Origin: Sphingobacterium sp. SGG-5
Lineage (GTDB): Bacteria; Bacteroidota; Bacteroidia; Sphingobacteriales; Sphingobacteriaceae
Direction: 5' to 3'
NCBI RefSeq assembly: GCF_011043525.1
Contig: NZ_JAAKGO010000001.1
Span: forward strand, 1-64,000
Length of the DNA stretch: 64,000 nt
Part shown: one piece after another, positions 10,174-36,150 of the stretch
Numbering within the stretch: position 1 is the stretch's first letter
How the letters are laid out: every line of letters starts with the position of its first letter
Position numbers and translations under genes: made by a program
Notes under the pieces: generated by a model
The model's input: the letters and a program-made list of their open reading frames with translations, nothing else
Told to the model about the DNA's origin: nothing
The model's database searches: none

Positions 10174-10179
10174 CCTTCA

Positions 10180-14847: not shown

Positions 14848-14858
14848 ACCACACAAAA

Positions 14859-15608: not shown

Positions 15609-15640
15609 GTCTAAATGCTACCTCCAGAAAATTACACGGA

Positions 15641-16888: not shown

Positions 16889-16929
16889 TTTAATTGATTC
16901 AGTTAATTATTTGATTTTCTTATATGTAT

Positions 16930-17931: not shown

Positions 17932-19524
17932 TTAAAATTTACTCTTCTTATCAAACTCGCTTTTTGCAAAATGAATGAACACCGAGGGAGGTAGTCCGGT
18001 AACCGTTTTAAAAATAGAAGAGAATTTGCTGTGGCTCGAAAAACCAGCCATATCGGCAAGATAGGACAATTTATAATCTAATAGATCTTTATCTGACCGG
18101 ATTCTGTTGATGATATAATGTATACGGCTATGTTGGATATAATTATTAAAATCTTTACCCCGATGTTTTTTTATAATATAAGAGATATAACGGGGATTGG
18201 TGTCAAACTGTGTGGCCAATTTTGTCAACGACACTTCTTTGTCTAAAAAGAACATTTCTTCCTCCAGCTTAACCAATGTTTCCAATAGACGCTCTTCCGT
18301 ATCTCCAGAAATCAGTTGTTCTTTCGGATCTTCGAGATCTGTCATCTCACCATTAGATTGCTCCTTCAAGATATTAAAATCAATATTCCCCGCCTTTAGA
18401 CGCTCCACCAATCCCAGATAATATTGCTTCTCCAGCTTTCGTTTACGGGTGAGATAAAGCAAAACCATCATCAATGTTGAAATCAAAAGAAAAATAAAAA
18501 AGCCAGCAAAAAGCATATTATCTTCACTTTTCCGTCGCTCTAATTCCAACTTATTTACGAGTTCGTCGGCAATATTTTTTGCGGATCGTGACCGTGCCTC
18601 TTTTACACTCGCAAACATATCCTGGTATCGGATGGCTTGTGCCTGATCACCAAATTGCCGATGATATCGGGAAAAGGTATCGTACAACAGCATTTTAAGC
18701 TCCTCTCTTTCTGATGACGCCAAATAAGGTTCTGCCATCTTCAGATAATGCAGGCTTGAATCAGCCTGCCCTCTGCTGATTGCCACTTCTGCTTGCGCCC
18801 GATAGATATATGGCTTTAGATTATTTTCTTCACCCTCGATTTTTGACAAGGCTGTACGGAGCAATGAATCCGCCGGATCGAGCTTTCCCAATTTAAGATA
18901 AGAAACTGCGAGAAGCTGGTCGTTGGTACCTCTTATAAGGTGCATCCTCGCATCTTGCTGATCCATGGATTTCAATATGTCCCGGGCTTCTGTCAACGGT
19001 TTAAGTGCTTCTTCATACCGCTCATCTTCCTGGGCATGAAGGGCTCTCTCATGGGCAATATTGATTTTCGTCAATAAATAACCAGGGGCATCTTTTTGAC
19101 CTTCATTCGCTTTTTCGGCCAGACCAAGGTGTTTCTGCGATTCATACATCAGCCCTACATGCCGAAAAGAAGTTGCCAAAAAACCTGAAATGCGGGCCTG
19201 CCACGCTATAAGAGAAGCATCTCTCGCTAGTTTCTGCGCTTTCAGTGCTTCTTCAAATTCCTGAACGCGATTACCCAAGCTATGATGAATGCCGGCTAAT
19301 AGCATATGCGACTTGACACGCTGTTCCCTATCTTTCGAAATGGTCAGCAATGAATCGGCCAGTTGTAATGCCTTCGGACCGTCTAAAGCCGAGATGCGGA
19401 CATATATTTCGTTGTATTTTTTATCGAAATCATCTTGTTGTGCATGTAGTTCTCCGATAGGAAACAGAACACCACAACATATCCATACAAGTAAGCTACT
19501 GCTAAAAATAAAAAATCTACACAT
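17932..19524 (-). CDS. Membrane-anchored TPR-sensor AraC-type transcriptional regulator
   Basis: The 530-residue protein has an N-terminal signal/anchor (about 1-28) and a helical, TPR-like region to about 320. One membrane segment lies at about 335-356 (FIFLLISTLMMVLLYL), followed by a cytoplasmic linker and a C-terminal AraC DNA-binding domain (about 425-525, with LSYLADMAGFSSHSKFSSIF). The layout places TPRs in the periplasm and the HTH in the cytoplasm, a one-component sensor common in Sphingobacteriaceae and Flavobacteriia. It lies immediately upstream of, and on the same strand as, the surface operon, separated by 300 bases containing that operon's putative promoter. Control of that operon is the natural but unproven guess. 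Confidence 0.85.
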   Translation of the reverse strand: MCRFFIFSSSLLVWICCGVLFPIGELHAQQDDFDKKYNEIYVRISALDGPKALQLADSLLTISKDREQRVKSHMLLAGIHHSLGNRVQEFEEALKAQKLARDASLIAWQARISGFLATSFRHVGLMYESQKHLGLAEKANEGQKDAPGYLLTKINIAHERALHAQEDERYEEALKPLTEARDILKSMDQQDARMHLIRGTNDQLLAVSYLKLGKLDPADSLLRTALSKIEGEENNLKPYIYRAQAEVAISRGQADSSLHYLKMAEPYLASSEREELKMLLYDTFSRYHRQFGDQAQAIRYQDMFASVKEARSRSAKNIADELVNKLELERRKSEDNMLFAGFFIFLLISTLMMVLLYLTRKRKLEKQYYLGLVERLKAGNIDFNILKEQSNGEMTDLEDPKEQLISGDTEERLLETLVKLEEEMFFLDKEVSLTKLATQFDTNPRYISYIIKKHRGKDFNNYIQHSRIHYIINRIRSDKDLLDYKLSYLADMAGFSSHSKFSSIFKTVTGLPPSVFIHFAKSEFDKKSKF

Positions 19525-19643: not shown

Positions 19644-20822
19644 CTACCAATCTATATTATCTGTTATAAACGCAATCAAACTATTCGCCATCTCCTGATG
19701 TTCGGCCACATTAGGATGCCGCGGTGTATTTTTATAGCTAAAGAAATGTGTATATATTTTTTCATCGAAGAGTCCCGCAACTGCATCGCTGATAATCTGA
19801 GTATAACGTCCTCCCTGAAACACAACTGCATTCATACTTCCCAATGTACATACAATATGTGCATCCGGATATTTCGTCCTTATCTCAGCAAGAAACTTCT
19901 GGTATTTCACGACCAGCTGCTGATCGGTAGGTTGTACGCCTCCATAGCGTTTTTGAAATTCGCTTGGATTATATGAAGGTGTATTTAGTACAGAAGCGTC
20001 ATTTTGAAAGAGGTTGACCACTACGATATCAGGAATATATTGCGTAAAATCCCATTTTTTGATTTCATCAAATGGATTTATCCGATCATACAGTTCGGGC
20101 ATGATGATATTGGTATAACCTATAGAAAGCCCTATACCACTCATGGCTATACAGTGGTACTGCGCATTAAAATGCCGAGCTGTAATGGCCCCATACGCTA
20201 GATAGTTATTTTCATATATACTCGCAGGACTATCCGTATCTGTATCATCTTCATTAGATCGTCCACAGGTAATGGAGTTACCATAAAATTCAATCTTCCG
20301 TTGTTTGAGTGGAGATGGATCCAAGATTTTTCCTTCACCGATGAGCTTAAAACCGAATAACTTCGTATAACTTCTACCATAACCTGCATTCATATGATTA
20401 ATCTTAAACAGCTCGACACGATGCGTTCCCTCATTCAGATTCTCAGCCAGTGTGTAAAATCTCCGTACCCTATCTACTTTTATCTTACCTTGTACCTGTC
20501 CATCGACGATGACATAAAAGTAGTTTTCGTTATTCGGACTAAAATCCTGCAACGAGACTCTAACGCCTTTCCCCTGAAAATTTAACCGCACGGCGGTGCC
20601 CGACCAATACAGATATGCTCCATCTTTTCCTTCGATCTCGACACGGCCTTCGTATTGAATTTTTGGATCGTCAAAAGAGACCACAACTTCTTGAGGACTG
20701 CCTGTGTCTTGGTCGCCATCTTTCTCTTCTACGACTATAGGGTCTTTCTTAGGATCGGAAGGGATAGTTTTACCGCATGCAAAAAACAATACGATAAGAA
20801 CCAGATTTATGCTATATTTCAT
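19644..20822 (-). CDS. SGNH/GDSL-type esterase lipoprotein (carbohydrate esterase family 2-like)
   Basis: The 392-residue protein begins with a lipoprotein signal (LFFACGKT, Cys16). An N-terminal jelly-roll region (about 50-165) is followed by an SGNH hydrolase domain. The catalytic Ser lies in FYGNSITCGRS (near 182), the glycine/Asn blocks in AMSGIGLS and VVNLFQNDAS, and the Asp-x-x-His-like end in RHPNVAEHQEMA. The jelly-roll plus SGNH order is that of CE2 acetyl-xylan-type esterases, which remove acetyl groups from sugars. It is the last gene of the SusCD locus, 8 bases after the DUF5689 gene. The acyl donor is unknown. Confidence 0.8.
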   Translation of the reverse strand: MKYSINLVLIVLFFACGKTIPSDPKKDPIVVEEKDGDQDTGSPQEVVVSFDDPKIQYEGRVEIEGKDGAYLYWSGTAVRLNFQGKGVRVSLQDFSPNNENYFYVIVDGQVQGKIKVDRVRRFYTLAENLNEGTHRVELFKINHMNAGYGRSYTKLFGFKLIGEGKILDPSPLKQRKIEFYGNSITCGRSNEDDTDTDSPASIYENNYLAYGAITARHFNAQYHCIAMSGIGLSIGYTNIIMPELYDRINPFDEIKKWDFTQYIPDIVVVNLFQNDASVLNTPSYNPSEFQKRYGGVQPTDQQLVVKYQKFLAEIRTKYPDAHIVCTLGSMNAVVFQGGRYTQIISDAVAGLFDEKIYTHFFSYKNTPRHPNVAEHQEMANSLIAFITDNIDW

Positions 20823-20830
20823 TTTTTCCT

Positions 20831-22987
20831 TTATTTATTATACCGTATAGCCACATATCCCAATGCCGAGTTGGCATTCCCGCCTATCATTTCTGTTGCA
20901 TAGGTATTTCCATTGCTAGATAGGTTTTTATCAACAATAAGCCGTATATACACTTTGGGTTTGCTTAACACGGCCAATGGCAATGCAACATTGACATTCT
21001 TGAATCCCGGCAATTGATGCAAAAGCGTATTTGACCAGTTGACAATATCTGGCACGGTGTATTTAGCTATCGGCGCCCATATACCATCCATATCGCCATG
21101 TTCTGACCATTCTACTGCCCAATATCGTGGACTTCCGGGGACAGTCCAATTCGCAGCCGTAAACTGTAGCGAAAGCTGTGAGGTGGCAACACCTAATGTT
21201 GATACTTCAATGATCCAGGCTTCCCCCCTATTCTTCTCATAATTCCACCATAATCTGTTTGCTGCAATACTGCTAGATACGGCCCCACCTTTTCCGTCTT
21301 TGTTTGTATCAGAGGATGTATTCTGCTTTGTACCGTTAAGCAACACTCCGGTACCCCATTGGTTATTGTTACCGAGATAATCTTTCCCCACCGGCCCCAA
21401 ATAGGTGTAATCACTACTTGCTGTCACATTGACATTATTGGATGCATACAGACGCCCATTGTCTCCGTTGGTCGGGAACGCGATACCCGAAGAGAGATTA
21501 GGGTATTGATACTCCGCGAGCAAAGCTGAAAACCCATTATCGACATTACTGGCAATCGCAATATCTTCCTTCGCCAGATGGCGAATCTGATAGCGGCCTA
21601 TATTGCCATAATCGTCCGGATTAGATGCATCTTCATATTCAAATCGGGTAAACGTCTCATGTACAATAACACCTGATACCGAGCCGGACCCTTGCGGAAG
21701 GATAGAACCATCTCTGCGATAAGGTACACGGGTATTGGTGAGCAAAAACATACTACTGCCTTGGATATCACGCATAAGTAATGGGTATTTAGATATCCTA
21801 TGAGCATTAAACAAAGTGGTATATCCTTCATTCACAGGTGTAAGTGAGCCTTTCCGTATCGGGAGCTCACAGTCTTTCAATGTCACAAATGTAAAAATAT
21901 CATTGTCCGTCAGTTCAGATATGTATTTCTCCTTTTTAACGAGATTGACCGCAGTACCTTGTTCCTGACTCATGACCATAGCGGATGTAACATCTCTGAT
22001 CGTATAGAAGCTCGGATTATTCTCTATTTCTATAGTCGCACCTTTCAACAATAACTGGACTTTGCTGTACCTTTTGAACACATTGTCTGCTATAGTTGCT
22101 GTTTCTATACGAAACCCGTACTGCCCATCCAGACTTTGTATATACACCGTACGATCATTTTGTTCATAATTTATAGTTGTCGGTGTCGTTTGCTGATTTT
22201 CACCTACGTTCTGATTCCCTGCGTCACTCACGACATACCCTTGGATAAACAAGTCGCTCGTAATACGCTCACCCGCCCACGTTCGTACTTCCGGATATGT
22301 TGCTTCTGTACCGAAAAGATTCTGTGCGTTGGCTTGGAGAAGGTACAACGTAGAGACCAGCTGCTCGCCCCAGCCGTCGGTATATGATAAGCGGATCTGG
22401 GCACTACGCAGGTTGTCCATATGCGGATTAGCCTTGACCGAAAAAGTCAACTTCTCATTAGCCGCATCGTATGCAAAATCATCACTCACCCACTCGTCTG
22501 TATTTTCTATCGGATAAACAACTTGTATAGCCACATCCTCCATAGGAATATTGGTTTGTAGCTCGCTAATTATCGTACCACCGTCTCCTAACACAGTAGT
22601 GTTAAGCATTGGAAAGAGCAATTCTGGGATTTTGGCACCCTGCTGTTTCACTACAATAGTGTCGTATCTCGAACTAGCTTTCGCATAGAGCATCACCAAT
22701 CCCTTTCGTGGAAAATCCAAATTTTCCTCATAATGGACGGTAAAATCGGCATCTCCATGTAGATCACTAGCCGCCGTAGACATCCAGGAGGCATCATCGG
22801 ATATCGTTATGTCAAAATCCGCATTGGACAAAACGTGAATGTCAACTTCTCCCGCTGCCGCAGGGACAATATATTCGGACGTTTCAGCACCTAACTCAGA
22901 TAGCTTAGAAAATTCGGCATCGTCTTTTTTACACCCATACAATCCGACAAAGAGCAATGCTAGTATTAATATTTTAAATCTTTCCAT
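20831..22987 (-). CDS. BACON and DUF5689 domain lipoprotein (downstream paralogue)
   Basis: The start is taken at the ATG at 22985-22987 (MERFKILILALLFVGLYGCK), which gives a clean lipobox and a 10-base gap to the previous gene. An ATG at 23026 would overlap that gene. The ~718-residue lipoprotein has a BACON-like Ig domain (about 35-115), a further beta domain, a DUF5689 region (about 240-490; YIQSLDGQYGFRIE, later LPQGSGSVSGVIVHE) and a C-terminal jelly-roll-like domain (RYWAVEWSEHGD). The whole architecture repeats that of the next gene upstream. BACON domains often mediate surface binding, and DUF5689 proteins are often seen near extracellular nucleases. Its role here is inferred to be binding a substrate at the cell surface. 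Confidence 0.75.
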   Translation of the reverse strand: MERFKILILALLFVGLYGCKKDDAEFSKLSELGAETSEYIVPAAAGEVDIHVLSNADFDITISDDASWMSTAASDLHGDADFTVHYEENLDFPRKGLVMLYAKASSRYDTIVVKQQGAKIPELLFPMLNTTVLGDGGTIISELQTNIPMEDVAIQVVYPIENTDEWVSDDFAYDAANEKLTFSVKANPHMDNLRSAQIRLSYTDGWGEQLVSTLYLLQANAQNLFGTEATYPEVRTWAGERITSDLFIQGYVVSDAGNQNVGENQQTTPTTINYEQNDRTVYIQSLDGQYGFRIETATIADNVFKRYSKVQLLLKGATIEIENNPSFYTIRDVTSAMVMSQEQGTAVNLVKKEKYISELTDNDIFTFVTLKDCELPIRKGSLTPVNEGYTTLFNAHRISKYPLLMRDIQGSSMFLLTNTRVPYRRDGSILPQGSGSVSGVIVHETFTRFEYEDASNPDDYGNIGRYQIRHLAKEDIAIASNVDNGFSALLAEYQYPNLSSGIAFPTNGDNGRLYASNNVNVTASSDYTYLGPVGKDYLGNNNQWGTGVLLNGTKQNTSSDTNKDGKGGAVSSSIAANRLWWNYEKNRGEAWIIEVSTLGVATSQLSLQFTAANWTVPGSPRYWAVEWSEHGDMDGIWAPIAKYTVPDIVNWSNTLLHQLPGFKNVNVALPLAVLSKPKVYIRLIVDKNLSSNGNTYATEMIGGNANSALGYVAIRYNK

Positions 22988-22997
22988 GATTGATATC

Positions 22998-25418
22998 TTA
23001 TTGAATATATTTAACAGATACGACACCTAAACGCATAGAAGTCCCCGTCATAGTCGATGTGATCACACCGTTCTCCGCTCCTGTTGCCGTTGCACATATA
23101 CTACTCTTAGCTTTCATCTTCACATACACATTCGACTTATTCAATAAGGAAGTAGGAAGCTCAAAAGTAAAAGGCATCAGCCCCGGTGTCAAAAATGGAC
23201 GATTAAGTCCCCAACCTACTAGCGGCCGTACGGCATACGTCGAATTGGGCAGCACAGTATAGGTTATTCCGTCCAATGAATATTCGATTTCCCAGTAAGT
23301 AGGGATATGGTTTGATCCATCACCACCAGAACCTCCTCCCATCGTAAAGTTCAATATCAATGACTGTGCACTTACGCCGGACGTTGAGAACTGTAAAACA
23401 AACCCCTCGCCTTTGTTTTCTGTAGCGTTCCACCATTTTACGCCTGTGTATTGAAAGCCATTATTATAAATCGTCTTTGAATCGGGATTCGAGTAGCAGA
23501 CCGGATGAAAACCTGTACCTGAAGACGCCTCATTGACTGTACAGCTCAACGTAGCCGATGTTCCGATAAGAGGCAATATTTTACCACTTCCATCTTTATT
23601 AATCTGTCCTATAGCACAGGCGTTGGTACCGTTTACCATCCAGTTCCATTCCACCAATGTCTTGGCTATTGCCGAGCCATCGAGCTGTATATCGTTCGGA
23701 TCCAGGGGTCTTATAGTGTAGCGGCCTACATTACCCTCTCCTCCACCATAACGAAGGAGTTTGGAATGCGTCAAGACGCCGGCAATTGTACCTGATCCTT
23801 GGGGCAGCGTATTACGTCCCCACGCTGCAGTAGCATTAACCAGCATATTAATATCCGAACCCTGCCTATCGTATACGTTTGTCGGAATCGCATCTGTATA
23901 AGGCCCAGTCGTGCCTTGTGTATTCCAAGCTGTCTTCATTACGTACCCCCTATTTACATTCATGTAGGTACCATACGGAACAGCAATAGAAACATCCCGT
24001 AATGTGACATATGTGTACATATCGACATCCGTCAGCTCTGCGATATACTTCAATTTACTCACGACATTGCTGGCTGTTCCGGCCTCATTTTTCACAATAG
24101 CACTGCTGGTCAGTCCTTTTATCGTATAACGTGTCGGATTCGCTTCCTTCTCTAGGGTCAAACCATCCAGCGAAATATTTACCTTACTATATCTCTTCAG
24201 TGTATTCTCATTTTTATCCGTAAATTTTAAGCGGAACCCATATTTGCCATCAACCGACTGTATATATGCCGTACGATAAGTTTCATCGAGATCTATGGCA
24301 TTGAACTTCGTATTCGGGTTAGTCTCTATATTGGCATTACCTTCATCACTAACAACGATTGCCTGCAACACCTTCAAGGGCGCTACAATGGTCGTCGTAC
24401 CCGATGGCATAGCGATAAGTGTTGTCAAATCTTCAGCTTTATAGTAATCATAATCTTCGGCCGATTGATAAACGTGATGGGTAAGCTGCACCAAATTCAT
24501 GCCTTTGATAGCAAGACGGATATCTACATCTGCATTTCGCTCCAAACCAGACGTATTTTCACGCACGGCCAGAATCAAAAGGCTGTCGTTCGTCAGCGTG
24601 ACTTCCTCTATCCAATCCGCTCCTTGATAGTAGGTAATATTCGTCTCCATTAATGGGAAGTGTACCCCCACATTGCTCTTCAATACAACCGTATCTAGTT
24701 TGGCACTCCTTGTTAAATAAGAGGTAGAGCCGTATTGATGAGCTAACATTGCATTATCCAATGATTGGTCAACATCGGTGAATGACGTCATTTCATTACC
24801 GAAGCCGTCGACAACCGTCATATAAATACGTACTGAGCGTTTACGTCCGGCAGTATTCTCCAACGCGTCGAAGATAAAACCATCTTCCGTCAACCGGGCA
24901 TTGCTAACCCATTGTTCCGATGTCTCGTCATCATACAAATACTCGAAATCTACCTGATCGAAATCATACTTTAGATTGCTCAGAATTGGCAGTATTGTAG
25001 GCAGTCCGTTTTTTGGTACCACAAACTTGGTTTTACCAAAACGAACGGCGACGTCCAATCCTTTCTGAATAATGCGTATTTCCTGTCTTTCATTGCCTTT
25101 GCTTAAGATCAATGTTACACTTCGCGCTACACCGAAGTTTTGTGAGTAGGCAAATGTTATATCGGAATTTCCGTTTCCCTGTAGCTTATTGACAGATATC
25201 CAATCTACATCTTCTGCAAATGTCACATTCCAAGCGCCGTCGGCATATACCATTATATGGGTTTTGCCCTCTATAGCCTCAAGATGTAGTTCGTTGGAAT
25301 TGACCGCCAAAGATAGATCCATATCTGTTTTCTTTTGACACTGCATGAAGAACGGAAGGATGAACAGAATCCCTGCCGCAATCTGTTTCAGGGTATATTT
25401 TGCTTTAAGTATTTTCAT
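22998..25418 (-). CDS. BACON and DUF5689 domain lipoprotein (upstream paralogue)
   Basis: The 806-residue lipoprotein (Cys27 in FFMQCQKKTD) has two BACON-like repeats near the N-terminus. A third beta domain follows, then a DUF5689 region at about 350-590 (YIQSVDGKYGFRLKF, later LPQGSGTIAGVLTHS and GNVGRYTIRPLDPNDI). A C-terminal jelly-roll-like domain contains PTYWEIEYSLDGITYTVLP. It shares this order with the neighbour at 20831, so the pair arose by duplication and then diverged. It follows the EEP phosphatase gene by 23 bases. The catalytic function, if any, is unknown, and a binding role is inferred. Confidence 0.75.
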   Translation of the reverse strand: MKILKAKYTLKQIAAGILFILPFFMQCQKKTDMDLSLAVNSNELHLEAIEGKTHIMVYADGAWNVTFAEDVDWISVNKLQGNGNSDITFAYSQNFGVARSVTLILSKGNERQEIRIIQKGLDVAVRFGKTKFVVPKNGLPTILPILSNLKYDFDQVDFEYLYDDETSEQWVSNARLTEDGFIFDALENTAGRKRSVRIYMTVVDGFGNEMTSFTDVDQSLDNAMLAHQYGSTSYLTRSAKLDTVVLKSNVGVHFPLMETNITYYQGADWIEEVTLTNDSLLILAVRENTSGLERNADVDIRLAIKGMNLVQLTHHVYQSAEDYDYYKAEDLTTLIAMPSGTTTIVAPLKVLQAIVVSDEGNANIETNPNTKFNAIDLDETYRTAYIQSVDGKYGFRLKFTDKNENTLKRYSKVNISLDGLTLEKEANPTRYTIKGLTSSAIVKNEAGTASNVVSKLKYIAELTDVDMYTYVTLRDVSIAVPYGTYMNVNRGYVMKTAWNTQGTTGPYTDAIPTNVYDRQGSDINMLVNATAAWGRNTLPQGSGTIAGVLTHSKLLRYGGGEGNVGRYTIRPLDPNDIQLDGSAIAKTLVEWNWMVNGTNACAIGQINKDGSGKILPLIGTSATLSCTVNEASSGTGFHPVCYSNPDSKTIYNNGFQYTGVKWWNATENKGEGFVLQFSTSGVSAQSLILNFTMGGGSGGDGSNHIPTYWEIEYSLDGITYTVLPNSTYAVRPLVGWGLNRPFLTPGLMPFTFELPTSLLNKSNVYVKMKAKSSICATATGAENGVITSTMTGTSMRLGVVSVKYIQ

Positions 25419-25441
25419 TTTTTTCCTTTGAATAACGCCAA

Positions 25442-26338
25442 CTATTTTAATGAAACCTCCATATACATCGCCGGATGATCGGAATATTTACTGGTGAAAT
25501 CATCGTAAATCGGATATGCTTTTCGAAGTTTCTGCAAAACCGGATCGGTAGTAAAGATGAAATCGATACGACTACCTGGATAGGTGAAATCATAATCTGC
25601 CGATCCATCTGCCCGAATACCGTGCAGATAGTGAATAGCATCCGTAAAGCCATCTTCATCAATCTGATCTGTTACCCAATAATTATGCGTAGCTTGATCA
25701 GGCATATAATCCTTTCGTGACCGGGAATTGAAGTCTCCTACCAATATCCAGTCGGACTCCTGCGGAAACTTACGAATAGTGCTGTCCAAAACAATATTGA
25801 TTTCGTGCAATCGGTAATCGTTTCCTAAGCCGTCACCTTTCTCGTGCCAATAGGATTGCGGCCAAAGGTGGGTAACAACGATATTGAAATTGGTATCTTT
25901 CAATCGGGCAAAAATAGCTCCGTGAGACGTGTATAATGTAACTTTTCTCCGCGATTCTAAAGGGTACTTCGAAGTCAGTGCTACGGGATAATTATCGGTG
26001 GCCTTCACATTGGTAATTACGTAAGGGTGTCCCCATCGCGCAGCCAACTTCTCCAGGTCCCGTTGCCGAAAACCGTTGGCTTCCTGTATTGCAAATATAT
26101 CCGGGTCGTAAGACTTTACCCATTCTACAAAATTATCATAATCGTTGGGTCTATCCGTTTTCATCCCTTCGAGGATATTAAAACTGACAATCTTGAGGTA
26201 ATCGGGCAATACGATCTCTTCTGGCTTTTCCTCCTTAAGCGGTGGCGGATCTTTCTCCGTACAGCCTACAAATCCCGTAATAAGGCTAAATAACGCCCAT
26301 ATATATATACCAAAACGTATTATTTTAACAATCTTCAT
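25442..26338 (-). CDS. Endonuclease/exonuclease/phosphatase (EEP) family lipoprotein
   Basis: The 298-residue protein has a lipobox (TGFVGCTE, Cys26) and a full EEP fold. Conserved residues appear in order: Asn in SFNILEGM, Glu in FAIQEANG, His in VVTHLWPQ, Asp-Asn in LVGDFNSRS, Asp in SRIDFIFT and the final Ser-Asp-His in KYSDHPAMYM. The superfamily cleaves phosphodiesters or phosphomonoesters in DNA, sphingomyelin, inositol phosphates and others, and sequence alone does not settle which. Being a lipoprotein in a SusCD operon, it probably works at the cell surface or in the periplasm on the substrate taken up by this locus. Confidence 0.88.
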   Translation of the reverse strand: MKIVKIIRFGIYIWALFSLITGFVGCTEKDPPPLKEEKPEEIVLPDYLKIVSFNILEGMKTDRPNDYDNFVEWVKSYDPDIFAIQEANGFRQRDLEKLAARWGHPYVITNVKATDNYPVALTSKYPLESRRKVTLYTSHGAIFARLKDTNFNIVVTHLWPQSYWHEKGDGLGNDYRLHEINIVLDSTIRKFPQESDWILVGDFNSRSRKDYMPDQATHNYWVTDQIDEDGFTDAIHYLHGIRADGSADYDFTYPGSRIDFIFTTDPVLQKLRKAYPIYDDFTSKYSDHPAMYMEVSLK

Positions 26339-26358
26339 ATCAAATATTTTAAAATCTT

Positions 26359-27837
26359 TTAATTCCTGCCATAATATTCATAGGCCTTATTGTCCAGATT
26401 ATACTCCGATTTTACCACTTCGACATCTGGTATCGGATAGTATTCATGACAAGGGAGAATATTATTTTTCACCGAAATGTAATCGGTATAATCATACGTC
26501 ATTTGATACCATATTCCCCACCGCACTAAATCATATTTGCGTTGGTATTCGCCTAACAATTCACGTGCTCTTTCTTTTTGGATTTCTTCGCGCAGCAAAT
26601 CCCAGTTCCGGAATTCATAATCCATTGTACCCGCCCGGCTTCTAACCATATTGAGGTAACGGATAGACTCATTTTGGTCTTTAAGTTCCATGTAATTCTC
26701 CGCTTGCATCAATAATGCATCCGCATATCGAAACACCTTCTGGTTATTACCGTCAGCTGTATTGAACATCTCGAAAGACCAGAATTTCGGCCCTAACCAA
26801 GGTACTGTACCTGTACTGCTAAATGCCGCACCGTTGTATTCCCAAACCATATTCAGAGGTAAGCGCAGGTCTTCACTATCCCGACGCTGAACAGCTTGGA
26901 AGAAGTAATTATTAGGGCGTAAGGCTGTCCATGTTGTCGCCCTTGATCCCAGTTCGGGAATGTTAACCCCATCGTACTTACTGTCCGAATTTCGTATCGG
27001 CATACAGATCGCCGCCGCATTCGTCACCACCTGTAAACCCGTTTCAGAATACGTAAATTGCACTTCAAAAATCGATTCAGATGTATTTTTATTTTTGAAC
27101 ATAATATCCTCCAACGGATATTGGCTGAGATCTCCATAAATCACTTCCAACTCGTCCATAGCATCCCGCGCTACACCCCATTCCTTGTTCCATTGCGCAA
27201 GTTTTCCGATCAGCATCCATCCCATGGCTGCACCTGAGCGATTTCCGGCAATATCGTTGGTCCGTATTTGCGGCAGATAAGGCACATATTCCTGCAATTC
27301 TTCGATCAGATAATTTCGGGTATCCACAGCAGGCATCCTTCCAAGCTTCGAAATCCTATCCAGAACTGCCGCATCCGACACATCTTCTGTATAAAAAGGT
27401 ACATCACCAAAAGTGGAGGTCAGAAACCAATAATAATAGGCACGCATGACAACTCCTTCGGCCAACAGGCGATTCTTCACTTCGTCCTCTAATGGTGATC
27501 GCTTAATTGCAGCAATAATTGAATTACAGTACATCACCCCCCTATATCCTTGTTGCCACATCGTGCTCCCAAAGCGTGGATTAGAGGGTGATATATCGAG
27601 CTGTGCATCTAGGGTGCCTGAAAAAATACGCATCAAATCTGTTACCCCTTCCATCGCTATAAGATATGTATAGTTGTAAATAGACCGTAAAGGAATATAG
27701 GTAGCATTGAGCCCGGAAATACATTGTGATTCCGTTAAGTAATAATTGTCTGAATTAACGAAGGACGACGGCTGCTCTTCAATAGAACAGCTCGAAACGA
27801 ACCCAAACAAAAGAAATATAATTAGCAAACGTTTCAT
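26359..27837 (-). CDS. SusD/RagB family outer-membrane nutrient-binding lipoprotein
   Basis: The start is set at the ATG at 27835-27837 (MKRLLIIFLLFGFVSSCSIE); the frame also has a TTG 6 bases upstream. The ~492-residue lipoprotein (Cys17) has the SusD pattern: an N-terminal TPR-like helical region (FVNSDNYYLTESQCISGLNA) and the C-terminal motifs RYADALLMQAENYMEL and LLGEYQRKYDLVRWG. SusD caps the SusC channel and binds ligand outside the cell. It lies 33 bases downstream of susC and is followed by the EEP lipoprotein gene. Confidence 0.95.
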   Translation of the reverse strand: MKRLLIIFLLFGFVSSCSIEEQPSSFVNSDNYYLTESQCISGLNATYIPLRSIYNYTYLIAMEGVTDLMRIFSGTLDAQLDISPSNPRFGSTMWQQGYRGVMYCNSIIAAIKRSPLEDEVKNRLLAEGVVMRAYYYWFLTSTFGDVPFYTEDVSDAAVLDRISKLGRMPAVDTRNYLIEELQEYVPYLPQIRTNDIAGNRSGAAMGWMLIGKLAQWNKEWGVARDAMDELEVIYGDLSQYPLEDIMFKNKNTSESIFEVQFTYSETGLQVVTNAAAICMPIRNSDSKYDGVNIPELGSRATTWTALRPNNYFFQAVQRRDSEDLRLPLNMVWEYNGAAFSSTGTVPWLGPKFWSFEMFNTADGNNQKVFRYADALLMQAENYMELKDQNESIRYLNMVRSRAGTMDYEFRNWDLLREEIQKERARELLGEYQRKYDLVRWGIWYQMTYDYTDYISVKNNILPCHEYYPIPDVEVVKSEYNLDNKAYEYYGRN

Positions 27838-27870
27838 TTTCAAAAGCTTTTAAACACTATTACAATCGTA

Positions 27871-30800
27871 TTAATATCTAATCTGTATCCCCCCAACAAT
27901 CGTCCGAGGCTTCGGATAAGCCCCTATATCGACCCTTCGCAAAGTAGATGTGCTACTCTGTGACGACACATCCGGATCAAAGCCATTATATTTTTTCCAT
28001 AAAAACAAGTTTTCGCCCGCCAAAGTCAACTGTATGTCGCGAAGTTTGTTGTTCGTCAGCTTACTAATGTCCCAGGTGTATCCCAACGCGATAGTTTTAA
28101 GCCGTACATAAGAAGCATCATAGACCATCCTATCCGACGTGATATTATCTACAGCTCCGGCACGAGGCAAGTCAGATGTTGGGTTACGGACCGGATGCCA
28201 TGCATTGAGCATATAGGTATATTGATTAGTCATCACACCATTAGCCATCCACTGCTCCGAAATGTTATAAATTTTTCCACCAATAGAATAATTGAAAAAT
28301 ACGCCCAGAGTCAGGTTTTTGTACCGGAAGCTGTTCTGAAGACCTCCATATACAAAAGGATCCGAATTCCCTAAGTAAATTAGGTCATTTTCATTGAGTA
28401 CACCATCATGGTCCTGATCTAGGTAGCGGGGTGCGCCTGGTGTATACATCGACGGAGCGGATGATACGTAACCATTGGTTATTTTATTCCTATCAACTTC
28501 ATCCAGAGACTTCCACGTACCTCCATATTGAAACCCCCATAATGCATTAAGTGGATAGTCTTTCACGTAACCGTACATCATATAACTGTTATTGCCATTG
28601 GCATTATAGACGCCGACATAATCGAGGGTAGCTATATCTTCCACCATTTGCTTATTGTGAGAGATCGAAAATGTAGACGTCCATGAAAAATCTTGTTTAT
28701 TGAAATTTCTCGTTTCAACACTTAACTCCACGCCCTTATTGGAAGTCTTACCAATATTAGCAAAGCGTGTATTATATCCTGTATGCCGGGGTGTTTGTAC
28801 ATCTAAAAGCAAGTCACTGGTATACGACAGGTAGGCTTCGAAAGTAATATTGACCCGTCTGTTCAGTAAGGCAATATCCGTGGCCACATTATACATATCT
28901 GTTTTTTCCCAGGAAAGCTCTTCACTGGCCAATCGGGACGGGTAAAATGCCACTGGTTGCGAACCGTCAAAGAGGTATCCACTTGTAGTAGATGCCAAAG
29001 CTGCTAACGAACGGTAAGAAGAAATCCCGTCATTTCCTGTTCGTCCCGCACTGGTCCGGATAGATAATTCATTTATCCAGTTCACGTCTTTCATAAAATT
29101 CTCTTCGGCTATATTCCATTTTAAGGCTGCCGACGGAAAAAAAGCCCATTTTTTATGAGCGGCAAAATTGGACGCACCGTCTCTTCTTCCTGTCACCGTC
29201 AAATAATATTTACTTTTATAATTATAGTTTGCTCTTGCCAGAAAAGATATAGACGACCGGGCATTATTACCAGACCCAGCTACGTAATTCTCTTTATCAG
29301 GGATAGCGTTCATATTGTTCCAGAGAATAGCATCCGACTGATATCCCTCACCTTGCAAGGTGAGGTTATCACTGCTGACCTTTTGACCAATGACGCCTAA
29401 TGTAAAATCAAGGTGATGTGTATCTTCCCAATTCTTTAAATAATTCAGCGTTGTCTGACTCATGAGATTCGTTTCGTTAAATTCCCCTCTATAGGCCATA
29501 CCGCCCTCATTTTCTGATTTCGCGGGCAGATTTCCGGGATCATACCGAAAGGTATGTCGCCCATAGGAATAATAATTCAGTTGGGAATTTATCTTCATAT
29601 TCGGGAACGGTTCAATCTCGATATATCCTGTATTTGTGGAACTGACACGCTTCATATTCCGGATAACATCTAAGTCTAATATCGAGCGAGGCGAATTAAA
29701 TTTTTGCCCTGAATACCATAAATCGTTAAAGTCGTCGTGTATCTTAATCAGTGGATTCAGGAAGATTGCACCACTCCACCAGGTCGCGCCACCTATGGAC
29801 ACCAAATTTTGATCTTCATCTCTGTTTGAATAGCTGTATTTATAGCCGACTTTCATCCAGGGAAACAACTGGTAGTCAATATTCAACCTACCTGTAAACC
29901 TCCCCAAACCACTTTTTTCCACAATACCCTGGGTATTGTCGTATGCAGCTGAAGCATAATAATTGGTCTTATTACCCCCACCGGCAAGGGAAAGAATATG
30001 ATTATGGTAAGGCGCTATCCGTGTAATTTCCTCAACCCAGTCGGTTCCTTTACCAAGGGATAAGGGATCTGGGTAAGGGTAGGCCGATTGCGGTGTAGTT
30101 GGCCCTACTGAACCATAATCGTCGGATGTTGCAAAAAGAGCATAATCGTTTCTGTACTGGGCGAATTGGGAGGCATTCATAATATCCAACTTCCGCGGCA
30201 ACTGAGAAAGCCCCGCGGTACTTTTCCATGTGATATTATCTTTTCCTTTTCGTCCTTGCTTGGTGGTAATGATGATAACGCCGTTACTTCCTCTTGTACC
30301 GTAAATAGCCGTGGCTGAAGCATCTTTCAATACGCTTACCGATTCAATATCTGCCGTATTGATATCGGAAAGGCTACTGATTCCGTCAATGACACCGTCT
30401 ACCACGATGAGTGGCTCATTGGTGGCCGTGATCGAACGTGTGCCCCGGATACGGATCGATGTTGCCGCCCCAGGTTCGCCGGTAGAAGCCATAATGTCGG
30501 CTCCCGGAATACGTCCCTGTAACGCTATATCAACGGACAGTACGGGTGCATTCCGGATATCCGCCATCTTGACATTTACTACAGAGCCAGTGAGGTCTTT
30601 CTTTTTTACTTCACCATAGCCGATAACGACGACCTCATCTACATCGGTGACTTTCTCAGTCAGCGTCACCAGTACTGTTTTTTGCTCACGGACACTGATC
30701 TCCTGCGCTTCGTATCCAATAATAGAAAACGAAAGTACCGCCGGAAGCGTGCTGACTTTAATAGTGAATAAACCTGCATCATTCGTAACCGTCTGCTGGG

Positions 30801-31290
30801 TTCCGTTTCTATCTTTTACCGTCACATTCGCCACTGGTGCTCCCGTTGAGTTCTGTACAGCGCCTTGAACGGTTCTTTCTTGGATAGCATGGATCGTTAT
30901 TGCAGGTTTTCTGCTCCCTGTTTTCATTTCTTTCTGTACCAGCACTATACTTTTATCCATCATCTTGTAATCCAAACCAAATTGAGGTAATACTGCCTGT
31001 AAGATTTGAATCGCTTCGGTATTCTGGAAATCCACATCGACTTTTGCCTGTGGAGACACTAAGCCCTGTGCATAGAAAATATTAAGCCCACTCTTTCGCT
31101 GTACTTCTTTAAGTAAAGTAGCAAGCGCAACTTGCTTACCCTTAACCGATATTTTTTGGGCAAAAGAAGATGCACTAACCTGGAAAGTAGCAACAAGCAT
31201 AAGTATCCACGTCAACTTCATAAATAATGGAATTTTCAGTTTAGAATGGCAATAGGGATGGCATATCCCTAACCTTTTTTTTTCATACAT
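27871..31290 (-). CDS. SusC/RagA family TonB-dependent transporter with STN signalling domain
   Basis: This ~1139-residue outer-membrane transporter has its ATG at 31288-31290. The ATG at 31219-31221 (MKLTWILMLVATFQVSASSF) would start right at the signal peptide, and the choice is uncertain. Behind the signal peptide an STN domain (LATLLKEVQRKSGLNIFYAQ) is followed by a carboxypeptidase-like CNA domain (about 140-215). Next come the SusC plug (RIRGTRSITATNEPLIVVDG, with the TonB-box-like DVDEVVVIGYGEVKKKDLTG before it) and a 22-strand beta barrel ending GGIQIRY. The STN domain shows that it signals to the FecR/ECF sigma pair encoded upstream. Confidence 0.95.
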   Translation of the reverse strand: MYEKKRLGICHPYCHSKLKIPLFMKLTWILMLVATFQVSASSFAQKISVKGKQVALATLLKEVQRKSGLNIFYAQGLVSPQAKVDVDFQNTEAIQILQAVLPQFGLDYKMMDKSIVLVQKEMKTGSRKPAITIHAIQERTVQGAVQNSTGAPVANVTVKDRNGTQQTVTNDAGLFTIKVSTLPAVLSFSIIGYEAQEISVREQKTVLVTLTEKVTDVDEVVVIGYGEVKKKDLTGSVVNVKMADIRNAPVLSVDIALQGRIPGADIMASTGEPGAATSIRIRGTRSITATNEPLIVVDGVIDGISSLSDINTADIESVSVLKDASATAIYGTRGSNGVIIITTKQGRKGKDNITWKSTAGLSQLPRKLDIMNASQFAQYRNDYALFATSDDYGSVGPTTPQSAYPYPDPLSLGKGTDWVEEITRIAPYHNHILSLAGGGNKTNYYASAAYDNTQGIVEKSGLGRFTGRLNIDYQLFPWMKVGYKYSYSNRDEDQNLVSIGGATWWSGAIFLNPLIKIHDDFNDLWYSGQKFNSPRSILDLDVIRNMKRVSSTNTGYIEIEPFPNMKINSQLNYYSYGRHTFRYDPGNLPAKSENEGGMAYRGEFNETNLMSQTTLNYLKNWEDTHHLDFTLGVIGQKVSSDNLTLQGEGYQSDAILWNNMNAIPDKENYVAGSGNNARSSISFLARANYNYKSKYYLTVTGRRDGASNFAAHKKWAFFPSAALKWNIAEENFMKDVNWINELSIRTSAGRTGNDGISSYRSLAALASTTSGYLFDGSQPVAFYPSRLASEELSWEKTDMYNVATDIALLNRRVNITFEAYLSYTSDLLLDVQTPRHTGYNTRFANIGKTSNKGVELSVETRNFNKQDFSWTSTFSISHNKQMVEDIATLDYVGVYNANGNNSYMMYGYVKDYPLNALWGFQYGGTWKSLDEVDRNKITNGYVSSAPSMYTPGAPRYLDQDHDGVLNENDLIYLGNSDPFVYGGLQNSFRYKNLTLGVFFNYSIGGKIYNISEQWMANGVMTNQYTYMLNAWHPVRNPTSDLPRAGAVDNITSDRMVYDASYVRLKTIALGYTWDISKLTNNKLRDIQLTLAGENLFLWKKYNGFDPDVSSQSSTSTLRRVDIGAYPKPRTIVGGIQIRY

Positions 31291-31335
31291 TTGCAAATAG
31301 GTTGAGATTTGTTAACAGTTACATTTCAATCTTTC

Positions 31336-31382
31336 ATGTCGTTAAGACATTATCTTGGCAGGGGCGGCTTCAACGCTCCTGC
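31336..31382. other. Two hairpins in the fecR-susC gap
   Basis: ATGTC-GTTAA-GACAT (31336-31350) and a 9-bp stem with one G-T pair (31358-31366 with 31374-31382, loop GCTTCAA) lie in the 115-base gap between the FecR gene and susC. No T-run follows on the minus strand, so a terminator is unlikely. They may affect the relative expression of regulator and transporter by RNA processing or stability. Confidence 0.35.
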
Positions 31383-31411
31383 TTTTGAATCATGTCTTTT
31401 TACACCGCCAA

Positions 31412-32617
31412 TCATTTCATGACAATGACCCTCCTTCCATCGACTTTAAACGTTACTAAGTTGGTCCACTCTATTAATTGTAACAATTGTTTAAAATTTT
31501 CAAAACGTGATATTGTACCAGTATACTTTACGGTGGAGAAATCCCCTTCATATTGTACGTCGATATCATACCAGCGCGAAATGTCATCCATTACCTTATA
31601 GATCGATGCTCCTTCAAACGCAAATTTCCCCTCTTTCCAGGCCACCGAGTAGAACGGTTCTACCGTTCTAACCGATAATTCTTTCGTGGATTTGGAAAAA
31701 TTTGACTGTTGTGACGGCCGTAGATATTGCCGGCCCTCAAGGCCATTGTACTCCAGAGCAACCAACCCTTCCACCAAAGTCGTCGTAATATCGTTCTGAT
31801 AACTATTGATATTAAAGCTGGTGCCCAGTACTTTTAACCGTTGCTGTCCCGTTTTCACGATAAAAGGAAGCTTTTTACCATTTTTGTATACTTTTTCGAC
31901 CTCGAAGTAAGCTTCTCCCTCCAACTCGACTTCACGAACGTCCTTATCAAATGCTATTGGATACCGAAGCTTTGAATCAGCATTGACCCATACTTTTGTA
32001 CCGTCGGGCAAGGCAAGACTGTATTCTCCACCTTTCGGAGTAATAATGGTGTTATATAGACTATGTAATTCCTTTTCATTTCGAAATTCGTAGGCAATGC
32101 TACCATCCTCCTGGCGATAAATCCGAAGCCCCTGATCCTGGAATACAGTATCCTTTTCTATCGTTGCTAACTCTACAAAACTGCCATCGTCAAAAACAAT
32201 CCTCGCTTTGTTCGACCCTGGCTTAATGAGGTCATTATCGGTTAAGATCTTATCCTCACTCTGCCATTTGAGGAGAAAGACACCAGTTCCTACCAAAATA
32301 ACCATACTGATACATGCAACCATTGCCACCCTAAACTGCTTTGCAGACCGCAGCATCCCACCGGATGATTGCCTTCCTCTGTCTTCATCGAAAGCAGGCT
32401 TCAGCCTTTCATCTTTCAAAATACGCCTAAACATCGGTTCTGCATTTACTTTTTCCTCATCGACAGGTAACGCTACAAAGGAATCGTCCCACACTTCCGA
32501 AAGAAGCTTCGCTCCTTCTGCAGTCTGAATGAAATCCATTAGAATTCGTTTTTCTTCGTCGCTAAGCTGTGCGTTGCGCGACTTGACGAGTAAATAATAT
32601 AGCTGCTGTCTATCCAC
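31412..32617 (-). CDS. FecR-type anti-sigma factor
   Basis: The frame begins with a GTG at 32615-32617, since a stop lies a few codons upstream and no ATG gives a full N-terminus. The 401-residue protein has a cytoplasmic N-terminal sigma-binding region (about 1-90), one membrane segment (about 95-117, VAMVACISMVILVGTGVFLL), a periplasmic FecR domain (about 185-285) and a C-terminal DUF4974-like domain ending in a strand close to that of STN. It holds the upstream ECF sigma in check until the STN domain of SusC signals ligand. It lies 81 bases downstream of the sigma gene and 115 upstream of susC. Confidence 0.92.
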   Translation of the reverse strand: MDRQQLYYLLVKSRNAQLSDEEKRILMDFIQTAEGAKLLSEVWDDSFVALPVDEEKVNAEPMFRRILKDERLKPAFDEDRGRQSSGGMLRSAKQFRVAMVACISMVILVGTGVFLLKWQSEDKILTDNDLIKPGSNKARIVFDDGSFVELATIEKDTVFQDQGLRIYRQEDGSIAYEFRNEKELHSLYNTIITPKGGEYSLALPDGTKVWVNADSKLRYPIAFDKDVREVELEGEAYFEVEKVYKNGKKLPFIVKTGQQRLKVLGTSFNINSYQNDITTTLVEGLVALEYNGLEGRQYLRPSQQSNFSKSTKELSVRTVEPFYSVAWKEGKFAFEGASIYKVMDDISRWYDIDVQYEGDFSTVKYTGTISRFENFKQLLQLIEWTNLVTFKVDGRRVIVMK

Positions 32618-32698
32618 TGTTACCGCGGTTTATCAGGTTTTTTTATAGTTATAAACGAAAGCTAATCGAGAATGTACTAATAGGGAAGTAAATATTTT

Positions 32699-33265
32699 TT
32701 AAAAAAGGAAGAAATAGATTTTTTGTAGTTGCAGGCGTACCATTTTGGTTGCTAACAGAAGATGATTTTTCACAGTATGTCGTGATATATTCAACTGTTC
32801 TGCAATTTCCTGTTGAGCCAGATCCTCCATTTTACTCAAGCGATACACTTCCTGCTGCTGGGCAGGAAGTGTCGCCACAATTTGTTCGAGGATACGGTAC
32901 AATTCCGTAAAATCTATCTGTTCTTCCGTGACACAGGAAATAGAAGTCCATTCCAGTTGTGCAGCCGATAGTCTGGAAGAATTGCTTAGCTGCTGCCTAT
33001 AATGTGAAATACACAATCGCTTTGTAATAGTAAATAAATAGGGATAAAGATCACTTTCTGAGTGGATTTTATGTCTATTCAGATATAACTGTGTAAAGGC
33101 CTCTTGTGCTATTTCTTCAGCATCTTCCAAATGCTTACATTTAGAATAGGCATAACGTAACACAATCGGAAAAAAGTAATCAAACGCTTTCCGATAAGCT
33201 TTTTCATCTCCATCAACAAAACGCTGAAAATCTTCTTCGTGGAAAATATGCCTTGTTAATTTCAT
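32699..33265 (-). CDS. ECF RNA polymerase sigma factor (FecI/Bacteroidota SusCD type)
   Basis: This 188-residue sigma factor has region 2 at about 25-85 (HLEDAEEIAQEAFTQLYLNR) and region 4 at about 130-180 (LPAQQQEVYRLSKMEDLAQQ followed by EIAEQLNISRHTVKNHLLLA). It lacks a cytoplasmic sensory extension, so activity is controlled by FecR, encoded next to it. Its likely targets are the promoters of the SusC-D-EEP-DUF5689-SGNH genes. It lies 20 bases downstream of the lipoprotein gene at 33286, so that gene is co-transcribed with it. Confidence 0.92.
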   Translation of the reverse strand: MKLTRHIFHEEDFQRFVDGDEKAYRKAFDYFFPIVLRYAYSKCKHLEDAEEIAQEAFTQLYLNRHKIHSESDLYPYLFTITKRLCISHYRQQLSNSSRLSAAQLEWTSISCVTEEQIDFTELYRILEQIVATLPAQQQEVYRLSKMEDLAQQEIAEQLNISRHTVKNHLLLATKMVRLQLQKIYFFLF

Positions 33266-33285
33266 CCCTTTCTCTTTCTTTATAT

Positions 33286-34305
33286 TCAGTTTTTCTCCTC
33301 TTCAAATTCAGCAACAGAAAATAAAGAAACATTGTCCAAAAACACCCTGTTGTTGCTTATTCCAGCATTTGTATTGGTCACAAACTCTATTTGAAGCGTA
33401 GCTGATAAAGGATTATTCTTTGGTTTATGGATCACAAAACTATAGTTCGAATCTTCCCACATTTTTGTTGCCAACAATGCAGACTGATAGTCAAAATAAC
33501 CCAACTCAACCATCCGACTTGTGCTTCCATCTTCAAACTCACCGTTGGACAAATTGATAGTCAGCTTATTTTCATCCATTACTCCCTTACCTGAAATATA
33601 GGATACCGCATCAAAAGCCAACAGAAGTACACTGTCTCGTTCTAAAGACGAAACAATTGGCGTATATAAATCCGCCCCTATATCTGCTGAACCCAATTGA
33701 AGAAAGCCATTCTTTCCATATACAAATGCATGACTTTGATCTGGCAATATCGTGGATGTCCAACCAGATTGTTTTTGTGAAGTAGACCAATTACCTATCA
33801 GCATTCCGGCAGCAAGATCCAGCGGATTGGTATTGCCATACTTCAGCCAAGTGAAGTCTTCTGAAAACCGGGTTTCGTATCCCTGATATAGCCTTAGAAA
33901 GCTTCCTGTATATTTTTCCTGGTTGGTGATATTTAAAACACCCGAACGTATCGCAAAGCCCTCTATAAGAGGCAGCACTTCTAATATCACCCGTGTCGCA
34001 TTTATTTCACTCAGATATTCTTTCTTATAGATGGTAACCCATTCTTCCAGTTCGGCGGTTTGGAAAGACAAATTGATATCTGAAGAAGAAAACACATACA
34101 ATGTGTCCTTACCTCCTTCAATAGCCAGATCCAATTTAGTAATCGCATCGGCCTGATGCTCACTTATCGAAACGGTCAACGCACTTTGCATATTTTCTTC
34201 ATTATCCTTGCTGCAAGCGCAAAACAAAATTATAGATAGTCCAATAATCGATTTTAGGGCAACACCCTTCTGTTCGCGAATATTATTCACAATTTTTCTG
34301 TTCAT
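33286..34305 (-). CDS. BACON-like lipoprotein upstream of the sigma/anti-sigma pair
   Basis: The 339-residue lipoprotein has a long n-region (about 17 residues) and a lipobox at LFCACSKD (Cys31). An N-terminal Ig/BACON-like domain (about 40-135) is followed by a C-terminal jelly-roll or concanavalin-like domain (FSEDFTWLKYGNTNPLDLA at about 147 to RVFLDNVSLFSV). This resembles the non-catalytic binding modules of the two DUF5689 proteins at the other end of the locus. It is the first gene of the sigma-FecR transcript, an unusual place for a binding lipoprotein. The ligand is unknown. Confidence 0.65.
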   Translation of the reverse strand: MNRKIVNNIREQKGVALKSIIGLSIILFCACSKDNEENMQSALTVSISEHQADAITKLDLAIEGGKDTLYVFSSSDINLSFQTAELEEWVTIYKKEYLSEINATRVILEVLPLIEGFAIRSGVLNITNQEKYTGSFLRLYQGYETRFSEDFTWLKYGNTNPLDLAAGMLIGNWSTSQKQSGWTSTILPDQSHAFVYGKNGFLQLGSADIGADLYTPIVSSLERDSVLLLAFDAVSYISGKGVMDENKLTINLSNGEFEDGSTSRMVELGYFDYQSALLATKMWEDSNYSFVIHKPKNNPLSATLQIEFVTNTNAGISNNRVFLDNVSLFSVAEFEEEKN

Positions 34306-34357
34306 GATTCATTTAGTTTTCTACGAGTGGACCAAGACCCAGTAGAAAGCGACGCTG

Positions 34358-34365
34358 CAAATCTA
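34358..34365 (-). promoter_or_regulatory. Candidate -7 element of the sigma operon
   Basis: Read on the minus strand, TAGATTTG matches TAnnTTTG 53 bases before the ATG at 34305. No TTTG stands at the expected -33 position, so this is a weak call. The rest of the 34306-34509 gap shows no other convincing element. Confidence 0.3.
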
Positions 34366-34509
34366 TACAAACTAACCCAATTTTCCTGTTAAATAGCCTT
34401 TAAGCTTATATTAAGATTAAAGGAAAAGTGTGTTAATATGTCAAAATATAGCAGTGGTTAGCATGTCATCATACTAAGATACAACTTTGCATAATAAAAC
34501 CAAAAATAA

Positions 34510-34540
34510 TTTGCATATCCATTTATCTATTTTAATTTTG
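34510..34540 (+). promoter_or_regulatory. Strong Bacteroidota promoter of the lactonase-like gene
   Basis: TTTG (34510-34513), exactly 19 bases, and TAATTTTG (34533-34540) match the primary sigma factor consensus of this phylum without mismatch. The predicted start near 34547 gives a leader of about 36 bases before the ATG at 34583. A GGAGG at 34558-34562 lies 20 bases from that ATG, too far to be a normal ribosome binding site. Confidence 0.75.
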
Positions 34541-34582
34541 GCATCATTGTAGTAGTCGGAGGAACTTTATCCAAATTATCTC

Positions 34583-36136: not shown

Positions 36137-36150
36137 ATCTTTTTTGTGGA

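Follow-up and report, generated by a model that had tools for sequence, protein, structure and literature searches.

Closest described systems

SusCD systems are usually taken to be importers of sugars. Among described systems, the locus analysed here comes nearest to PUSI and PUSII from Flavobacterium johnsoniae. These are SusCD-like complexes that are induced when phosphate is depleted and that have phosphodiesterases or a phosphatase linked to them (PMC8115612). Extracellular nucleases of the ExeM/NucH/YhcR and SWAN types combine an OB-fold-like module with an EEP domain at the cell surface (PMC6085458, PMC4118848), and ExeM lost its activity when its OB-fold (YcgR-like) region was deleted (PMC6085458). 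In Riemerella, the DUF5689 protein RA0C_RS04920 and its partner RA0C_RS04915 are both essential for natural transformation (PMC8459023).

The locus is carried by a 64,000-nucleotide stretch of Sphingobacterium sp. SGG-5 DNA (the window) from a genome of 4.11 Mb. Like PUSI and PUSII, it joins a SusCD-like pair to phosphodiesterase or phosphatase genes instead of CAZy glycoside hydrolases and, like PUSI, it has an ECF sigma factor (PMC8115612). The enzymes of PUSI are calcineurin-type and PI-PLC-like and are said to be periplasmic, whereas an EEP lipoprotein adjoins SusD here; the paired BACON-DUF5689 proteins are a further difference, as the part of the report consulted mentions no DUF5689 protein for PUSI or PUSII. 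Regulation by Pi was shown for those two systems (PMC8115612); the window locus is likened to them by gene content. The structural feature of Pus loci, a SusCD pair linked to a phosphatase or phosphodiesterase, is present in the window, where the EEP gene directly follows susD, and in 25 further cassettes. The locus is best filed as a variant of the phosphate-utilisation (Pus) type of SusCD locus, with PUSI and PUSII as the nearest described examples.

Other resemblances are more partial. The two modules of the ExeM/NucH/YhcR and SWAN-type nucleases form one protein, whereas the DUF5689 and EEP proteins here are separate lipoproteins tied to SusCD. The Riemerella pair likewise consists of a DUF5689 surface protein and, encoded beside it, an outer-membrane protein whose regulatory domain is of the TonB-receptor type, but SusD and a phosphodiesterase are not reported there, and a choice-of-anchor J domain takes the place of BACON (PMC8459023). 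Glycan polysaccharide-utilisation loci (PULs) with CE2 esterases share SusCD, ECF/FecR and CE2 with the locus; unlike them, it showed no glycoside hydrolase (GH) or polysaccharide lyase (PL) among the window genes scanned, and its CE2 gene is not conserved in the cassette. The literature searched contained no described SusCD system for nucleic acid or teichoic-acid-like polymers, and within it the link between DUF5689 and phosphodiesterases appears to be new.

Gene organization of the locus

The genes lie on the - strand and are described from position 34305 downwards. The first encodes a surface-type lipoprotein (LP; 33286..34305) with the lipobox LFCAC-SKDNEE and no Pfam or NCBIfam match. 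It is followed by genes for an ECF sigma factor (32699..33265; TIGR02985, E-value: 2.7e-33; PF08281; PF04542), a FecR anti-sigma/signal-transfer protein (31412..32617; PF04773, 63 bits; PF16344, 59 bits) and a SusC TonB-dependent transporter with STN, carboxypeptidase-like and plug domains (27871..31296; TIGR04056, 784 bits; TIGR04057; PF07715; PF13715). The SusD surface lipoprotein (26359..27843; PF07980, 80 bits; PF14322, 38 bits) matches solved SusD homologues with E-values down to 1e-22, and its gene is 27 bases from that of SusC by ORF coordinates, the adjacency expected of a SusCD locus. The remaining genes encode an EEP-fold phosphodiesterase lipoprotein (25442..26338), BACON-DUF5689 lipoproteins a (806 aa; 22998..25418; PF13004, 48 bits) and b (731 aa; 20831..23026; PF13004, 29 bits) and a CE2-type carbohydrate esterase lipoprotein (19644..20822). 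From SusC to CE2, spacing runs from a 29-base overlap, that of DUF5689 genes a and b, to approximately 27 bases.

Pfam and NCBIfam searches recovered every gene named in an earlier note on this DNA, on one strand and with short gaps as that note had described. Its boundary at 34305 also takes in the LP gene, which is conserved with the system but was not named. Of the transporter that it called STN-SusC, the SusC part is clear, and the STN domain is recognisable at 20.0 bits, below the Pfam cut-off of 28.4.

Lipobox-type signal peptides are present in six proteins (LP, SusD, EEP, DUF5689 a, DUF5689 b and CE2). LP, SusD, EEP and DUF5689 b have acidic residues a few positions from the lipobox cysteine, the type of signal associated with surface export in Bacteroidota. 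The lipoproteins of the locus are predicted to be surface exposed.

The earlier statement that the locus has no glycoside hydrolase holds for the window ORFs scanned. From 8.6 to 39.8 kb these comprised all ORFs with a length of 150 aa or more other than a purE-like ORF at 35633-36229 and small ORFs nested in genes, and from 40.0 to 62.6 kb they comprised ten larger ORFs. Among these genes no linked GH or PL of the kind found in PUL-type loci was seen, and the sole CAZyme is the CE2 esterase. Because CE2 is a CAZy esterase family, the locus lacks glycoside hydrolases yet still encodes a carbohydrate-active enzyme. A TPR-AraC type regulator (17932..19524, -; PF12833) starts 119 bases past the CE2 gene; no counterpart was found among the ORFs of related loci, and it may not belong to the system.

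The EEP phosphodiesterase

The EEP lipoprotein belongs to PF03372, on which it scores 64.4 bits (curated cut-off 24.5). All catalytic residues expected of the superfamily (N, E, H, D-x-N, D, D-H) are present in this predicted phosphodiesterase, as N54, E86, H157, D202, N204, D259, D287 and H288, and they are invariant across 19 aligned orthologues with identities down to 26%. Its only NCBIfam matches are ExoIII models, and its score on the ExoIII (xth) model (40 bits, cut-off 99) identifies it as a relative rather than a member. When an EEP profile was compared with the PDB, the best 60 sequences were exclusively nucleases or unnamed EEP proteins, with ExoIII, APE1 and LINE-1 endonuclease ranked first (E-values as low as 4.5e-16). 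Structure prediction, which the earlier note had proposed for this active site, gave a model with a pLDDT of 61 that is closest in fold to LINE-1 endonuclease and TDP2.

These nuclease matches, in NCBIfam as well as in the profile and fold comparisons, are consistent with scavenging of nucleic acid, in which DNA or RNA would be captured at the surface, the EEP protein would act as a surface nuclease and oligonucleotides imported by SusC would supply P, N and C. Such a role is possible, though tentative, and several further lines of evidence touch on it below; a pLDDT of just 61 counts against the structural part of the argument.

The DUF5689 proteins and their relatives

DUF5689 a and b score 41.3 and 36.6 bits, respectively, on PF18942 (cut-off 28.6), have BACON domains above cut-off and are 45% identical over the DUF5689 domain. 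Single secreted proteins of other Bacteroidota fuse DUF5689 to an EEP domain (L126, L127, L128 and L129) or to PLD-like domains (L130 and L134). In the two PLD fusions, L130 and L134, the DUF5689 region aligns with the ExeM/NucH DNase model (E-values: 5.6e-7 and 3e-4), a match confined to the N-terminal part of the model and to fused relatives. Both this resemblance and the presence of DUF5689 in a Riemerella DNA-uptake protein agree with a nucleic acid substrate.

Evidence on the fold is sparser. A profile search of the PDB with a 38-member DUF5689 alignment gave nothing below an E-value of 0.5, and a Pfam scan of 68 DUF5689 proteins included no OB-fold family among the 25 families listed (BACON, F5/8-C, LTD and others). 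The fold prediction suggested in the earlier note covered the DUF5689 half of the protein, and the model (pLDDT 41, pTM 0.28) was too poor for use. Because of this poor model the OB-fold link rests on sequence, and the OB-fold nature of DUF5689 is a lead rather than a result.

In Flavobacteria locus L141, a DUF5689 gene adjoins one whose outer-membrane product has a carboxypeptidase regulatory domain, an arrangement that corresponds to RA0C_RS04920/RA0C_RS04915; no SusD or EEP gene was recognised beside it in this one locus. The Riemerella-type protein (DUF5689 plus choice-of-anchor J) matches the Pfam model with E-values of approximately 1e-50 to 1e-70, compared with 1e-9 to 1e-11 for the proteins studied here, and is a different subfamily. 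It is very improbable that the window locus is a natural transformation apparatus of the Riemerella kind. The requirement for a DUF5689 protein and a carboxypeptidase-regulatory-domain outer-membrane protein in Riemerella (PMC8459023) is in its favour, but the subfamily and the gene content of L141 differ from those of the window, and degrading enzymes under their own ECF switch fit nutrition better.

Two genomes of the same genus, G130 and G145 (L016 and L017), have a DUF5689 gene with an E-value of approximately 1e-66, similar to the single high-scoring gene of the sampled Flavobacteriia, which is of the Riemerella transformation type. The best DUF5689 match of the window genome is 2e-25, and none is as strong as the G130/G145 gene.

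Conservation of the cassette

A search for DUF5689 in the SGG-5 genome gave eight places, two of them in the window and the other six in five regions. L013 is a second copy of the module in this genome (ECF-FecR-SusC-SusD-EEP-DUF5689-CE2). Other SusCD operons of the genome encode a phosphocholine-specific phospholipase C (L009; TIGR03396, 779 bits), a glycerophosphodiester phosphodiesterase (GDPD) with a calcineurin-type enzyme and a GlpT-like MFS transporter (L010), two EEPs (L012) or a calcineurin-type enzyme (L014). Thus, every DUF5689 SusCD operon here adjoins a phosphoesterase gene, and several unrelated folds are represented. The L009 operon (L009:4592-14440), in which SusC, SusD and DUF5689 are followed by the phospholipase C, is a candidate locus for uptake of phosphatidylcholine headgroups.

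When 401 Sphingobacteriaceae genomes were searched with the DUF5689 a protein, relatives were found in 30, whereas a scan of genome contigs with DUF5689 a had given one relative only. Among named species, Sphingobacterium chuzhouense has the locus most closely related to that of the window, with 68% identity over DUF5689 a. Twenty-six cassettes were compared (the window, L013 and 24 loci of other genomes). Each of them has an EEP gene right after susD and then a gene for a BACON-DUF5689-type protein, some of the latter being recognised by the DUF5689 a protein search only and not by the local profile.

Two DUF5689 genes occur in the window and in L015, L072, L073 and L145-L151. LP is present in all of these 11 loci, before the ECF gene or at the operon end, and is absent from all loci with a single DUF5689 gene. 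In the ten relatives with two DUF5689 genes (10/10), a second EEP occupies the CE2 slot. This replacement, seen in 10 of the 11 two-DUF5689 loci, would suit a nuclease system; a profile of the second EEP had no hit in the PDB. On the other hand, none of the cassettes had a recognisable nucleotidase or nucleoside gene next to it, and the neighbours that could be identified were SGNH, GH20 and GH89 genes.

The CE2 esterase and the case for a glycan

The CE2 protein scores 75.8 bits on PF17996 (CE2_N; cut-off 27.9) and 27.9 bits on the SGNH domain (cut-off 32.9), and matches PDB entry 2wao over its full length (E-value: 5e-46). Ser183 and His369 of the CE2 motifs are kept, but the block-III Gly (FQND for GTND) and the Asp of D-x-H are replaced, and the enzyme may be impaired by the loss of these two conserved motif residues. 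CE2 occurs in just two of the 26 cassettes, those of the window and L013, both in this genome. As these CE2 proteins are 63% identical and the corresponding SusC proteins 26% identical, CE2 appears to be associated with the cassettes without having descended together with them, and the two loci probably came to share it after their divergence. CE2 is tied to the cassette in this lineage and is not part of the core. The CE2-like SGNH esterase listed in the first description of the system is not a conserved part of it: relatives carry a second EEP, another SGNH esterase or nothing at that point. The idea that CE2 defines the substrate was likewise weakened, CE2 being missing from all relatives outside this genome.

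The earlier note had named a glycoside hydrolase in the same regulon as evidence against its reading; none was found among the window genes scanned, and a GH20 gene lies downstream in five of the 26 relatives. This is close to background, because 4 of 39 control SusCD loci also have a downstream GH20, and the proposal that GH20 partners prove a HexNAc glycan was weakened by the same comparison. GH20 accompanies a GxDLY-type SGNH esterase in L154, L156 and L158 and stands alone in L075 and L159; GH89 follows DUF5689-EEP in L044 and L061.

A possible, though tentative, substrate is an acylated phosphodiester glycan, such as teichoic acid, phosphomannan, a GlcNAc-phosphodiester or an inositol-phosphate glycan. 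The EEP enzyme would cut backbone or side-chain phosphodiesters, and CE2 or another SGNH esterase would remove acyl groups. The presence of similar CE2 proteins in both EEP cassettes of the genome despite dissimilar SusCs is consistent with this, as are the SGNH-GH20 and GH89 genes of relatives; the near-background frequency of GH20, the restriction of CE2 to this genome and the altered CE2 motifs argue against it. Because GH20 lies downstream in some relatives and CE2 in the locus itself, a glycan substrate with an incidental phosphodiesterase is also possible. An ordinary PUL for an acetylated plant glycan, with the EEP enzyme incidental, is improbable: the CE2 family comprises acetylxylan and glucomannan deacetylases, and SusCD with ECF/FecR is usual in such loci, but the invariant gene is that of EEP and not CE2, and the window genes scanned in and near the locus yielded no GH or PL.

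Association of DUF5689 with phosphoesterases

Sixty regions around DUF5689 matches were taken from 91 Sphingobacteriaceae genomes, and 53 of them had a DUF5689-linked SusD. Enzymes were labelled by means of local profiles whose seed proteins had been verified with Pfam. Of the 53 DUF5689 loci, 39 had an EEP, GDPD or calcineurin-type gene no more than six genes downstream, compared with 4 of 39 SusCD loci from the same family that served as controls (Fisher p = 6e-10, before correction for relatedness); the controls came from a score-ordered SusD list that may introduce bias. This p-value overstates the evidence because a SusD tree of 118 sequences shows only 5 changes of DUF5689 state; an independent-pairs test on the tree was not significant (2:0 with 2 ties, too few events). 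The other 14 sampled DUF5689 loci are without a downstream phosphoesterase.

A common layout is SusC-SusD-DUF5689-calcineurin-type-GDPD-GlpT-like-GDSL. The fold of the enzyme beside the constant DUF5689 varies (EEP, GDPD, calcineurin-type or phosphocholine-specific phospholipase C), and therefore the shared factor is the phosphodiester bond. Phosphodiester substrates are the one thing common to the DUF5689 contexts. The occurrence of GDPD, GlpT-like transporters and phosphocholine-specific phospholipase C in these loci indicates that DUF5689 is not specific for nucleic acid, and so counts against nucleic acid scavenging.

GDSL-type hydrolase genes were found in 16 of the 53 DUF5689 loci, mostly with calcineurin-type (MPE) and GDPD genes, and in none of the 39 controls, which favours an acylated glycan. 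The GDPD and calcineurin-type enzymes of DUF5689 loci resemble the GlpQ and PhoD teichoicases and were counted on the same side. A GDSL/SGNH hydrolase of approximately 227 aa ends many DUF5689-MPE-GDPD operons (for example, L021:15430-16113), which suggests that deacylation precedes the cleavage of a glycerophosphodiester. Runs of two to three local EEP-profile matches, up to 1242 aa, occur in the DUF5689 operons L025 and L042. Between the ECF sigma factor and FecR genes lies a DUF5689 gene in L010 (16093-17766) and a calcineurin-type (MPE) gene in L026; this unusual placement could hint at a role in sensing.

Proposed model

The locus probably encodes an outer-membrane system that regulates itself and takes up a polymer containing phosphodiester bonds. 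The proposed model is as follows. The two DUF5689 lipoproteins and SusD would hold the substrate at the cell surface, where the EEP lipoprotein would cut its phosphodiester bonds. In this species, the CE2 esterase would strip acyl groups. Fragments would be imported by the TonB-dependent SusC, and the SusC signalling domain, FecR and the ECF sigma factor would turn the operon on when substrate is sensed. The sequences themselves show which genes are present, that the EEP active site is complete, that gene order is conserved and that DUF5689 is associated with phosphodiesterases; surface exposure, catalysis, the import step and the substrate are what we infer.

The earlier preference for a phosphodiester substrate over a plain glycan stands at the level of the class, given the EEP gene in all 26 cassettes, the several phosphoesterase folds and the EEP and PLD fusions. 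Within that class, rather less than half of the expectation falls on an acylated phosphodiester glycan (teichoic-acid-like or phosphoglycan), nearly as much on nucleic acid and a small remainder on lipid-derived or other phosphodiesters, which puts phosphoglycan slightly ahead of nucleic acid.

A broader suggestion, offered as speculation, is that DUF5689 might be a general phosphodiester-polymer-binding module of Bacteroidota surfaces and that SusC-SusD-EEP-DUF5689 loci might form a distinct class that degrades and imports extracellular nucleic acid or teichoic-acid-like polymers. If so, DUF5689, a domain also needed for DNA uptake in Riemerella, would gain a testable role in binding phosphodiester polymers, and there would be a conserved SusCD sub-class whose one invariant enzyme is a phosphodiesterase. 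Soil- and plant-associated Bacteroidota would also have a route to phosphorus from nucleic acids, teichoic acids or phospholipid headgroups.

Promoter motifs and flanking regions

A putative Bacteroidota-type promoter, TTTG-N19-TATCTTAG, lies upstream of the first gene (LP) at 34474..34504 (-); it is weak, with one mismatch, and a scan of the window gave 10 matches to the motif where 9.3 were expected by chance, so that only its placement is of note. Scans for sigma-70 promoters and terminators were at chance level. The region at 34306-34582 is a divergent intergenic region that faces a lactonase-type (PF10282) beta-propeller gene at 34583 (+). It also contains a perfect TTTG-N19-TANNTTTG match at 34510-34540 (+), for a motif that is at chance level across the window.

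On the other side of the locus, window positions 8629-17631 (-) hold a block of large secreted surface proteins. These include a CHU_C (type IX secretion) protein with an Ig-like domain and a 1558-aa DUF11/Ig-like protein. The block also encodes three proteins of 233-415 aa without Pfam hits, which have in common the motif KGLL(I/H)(P/A)R(V/I) near the N-terminus.
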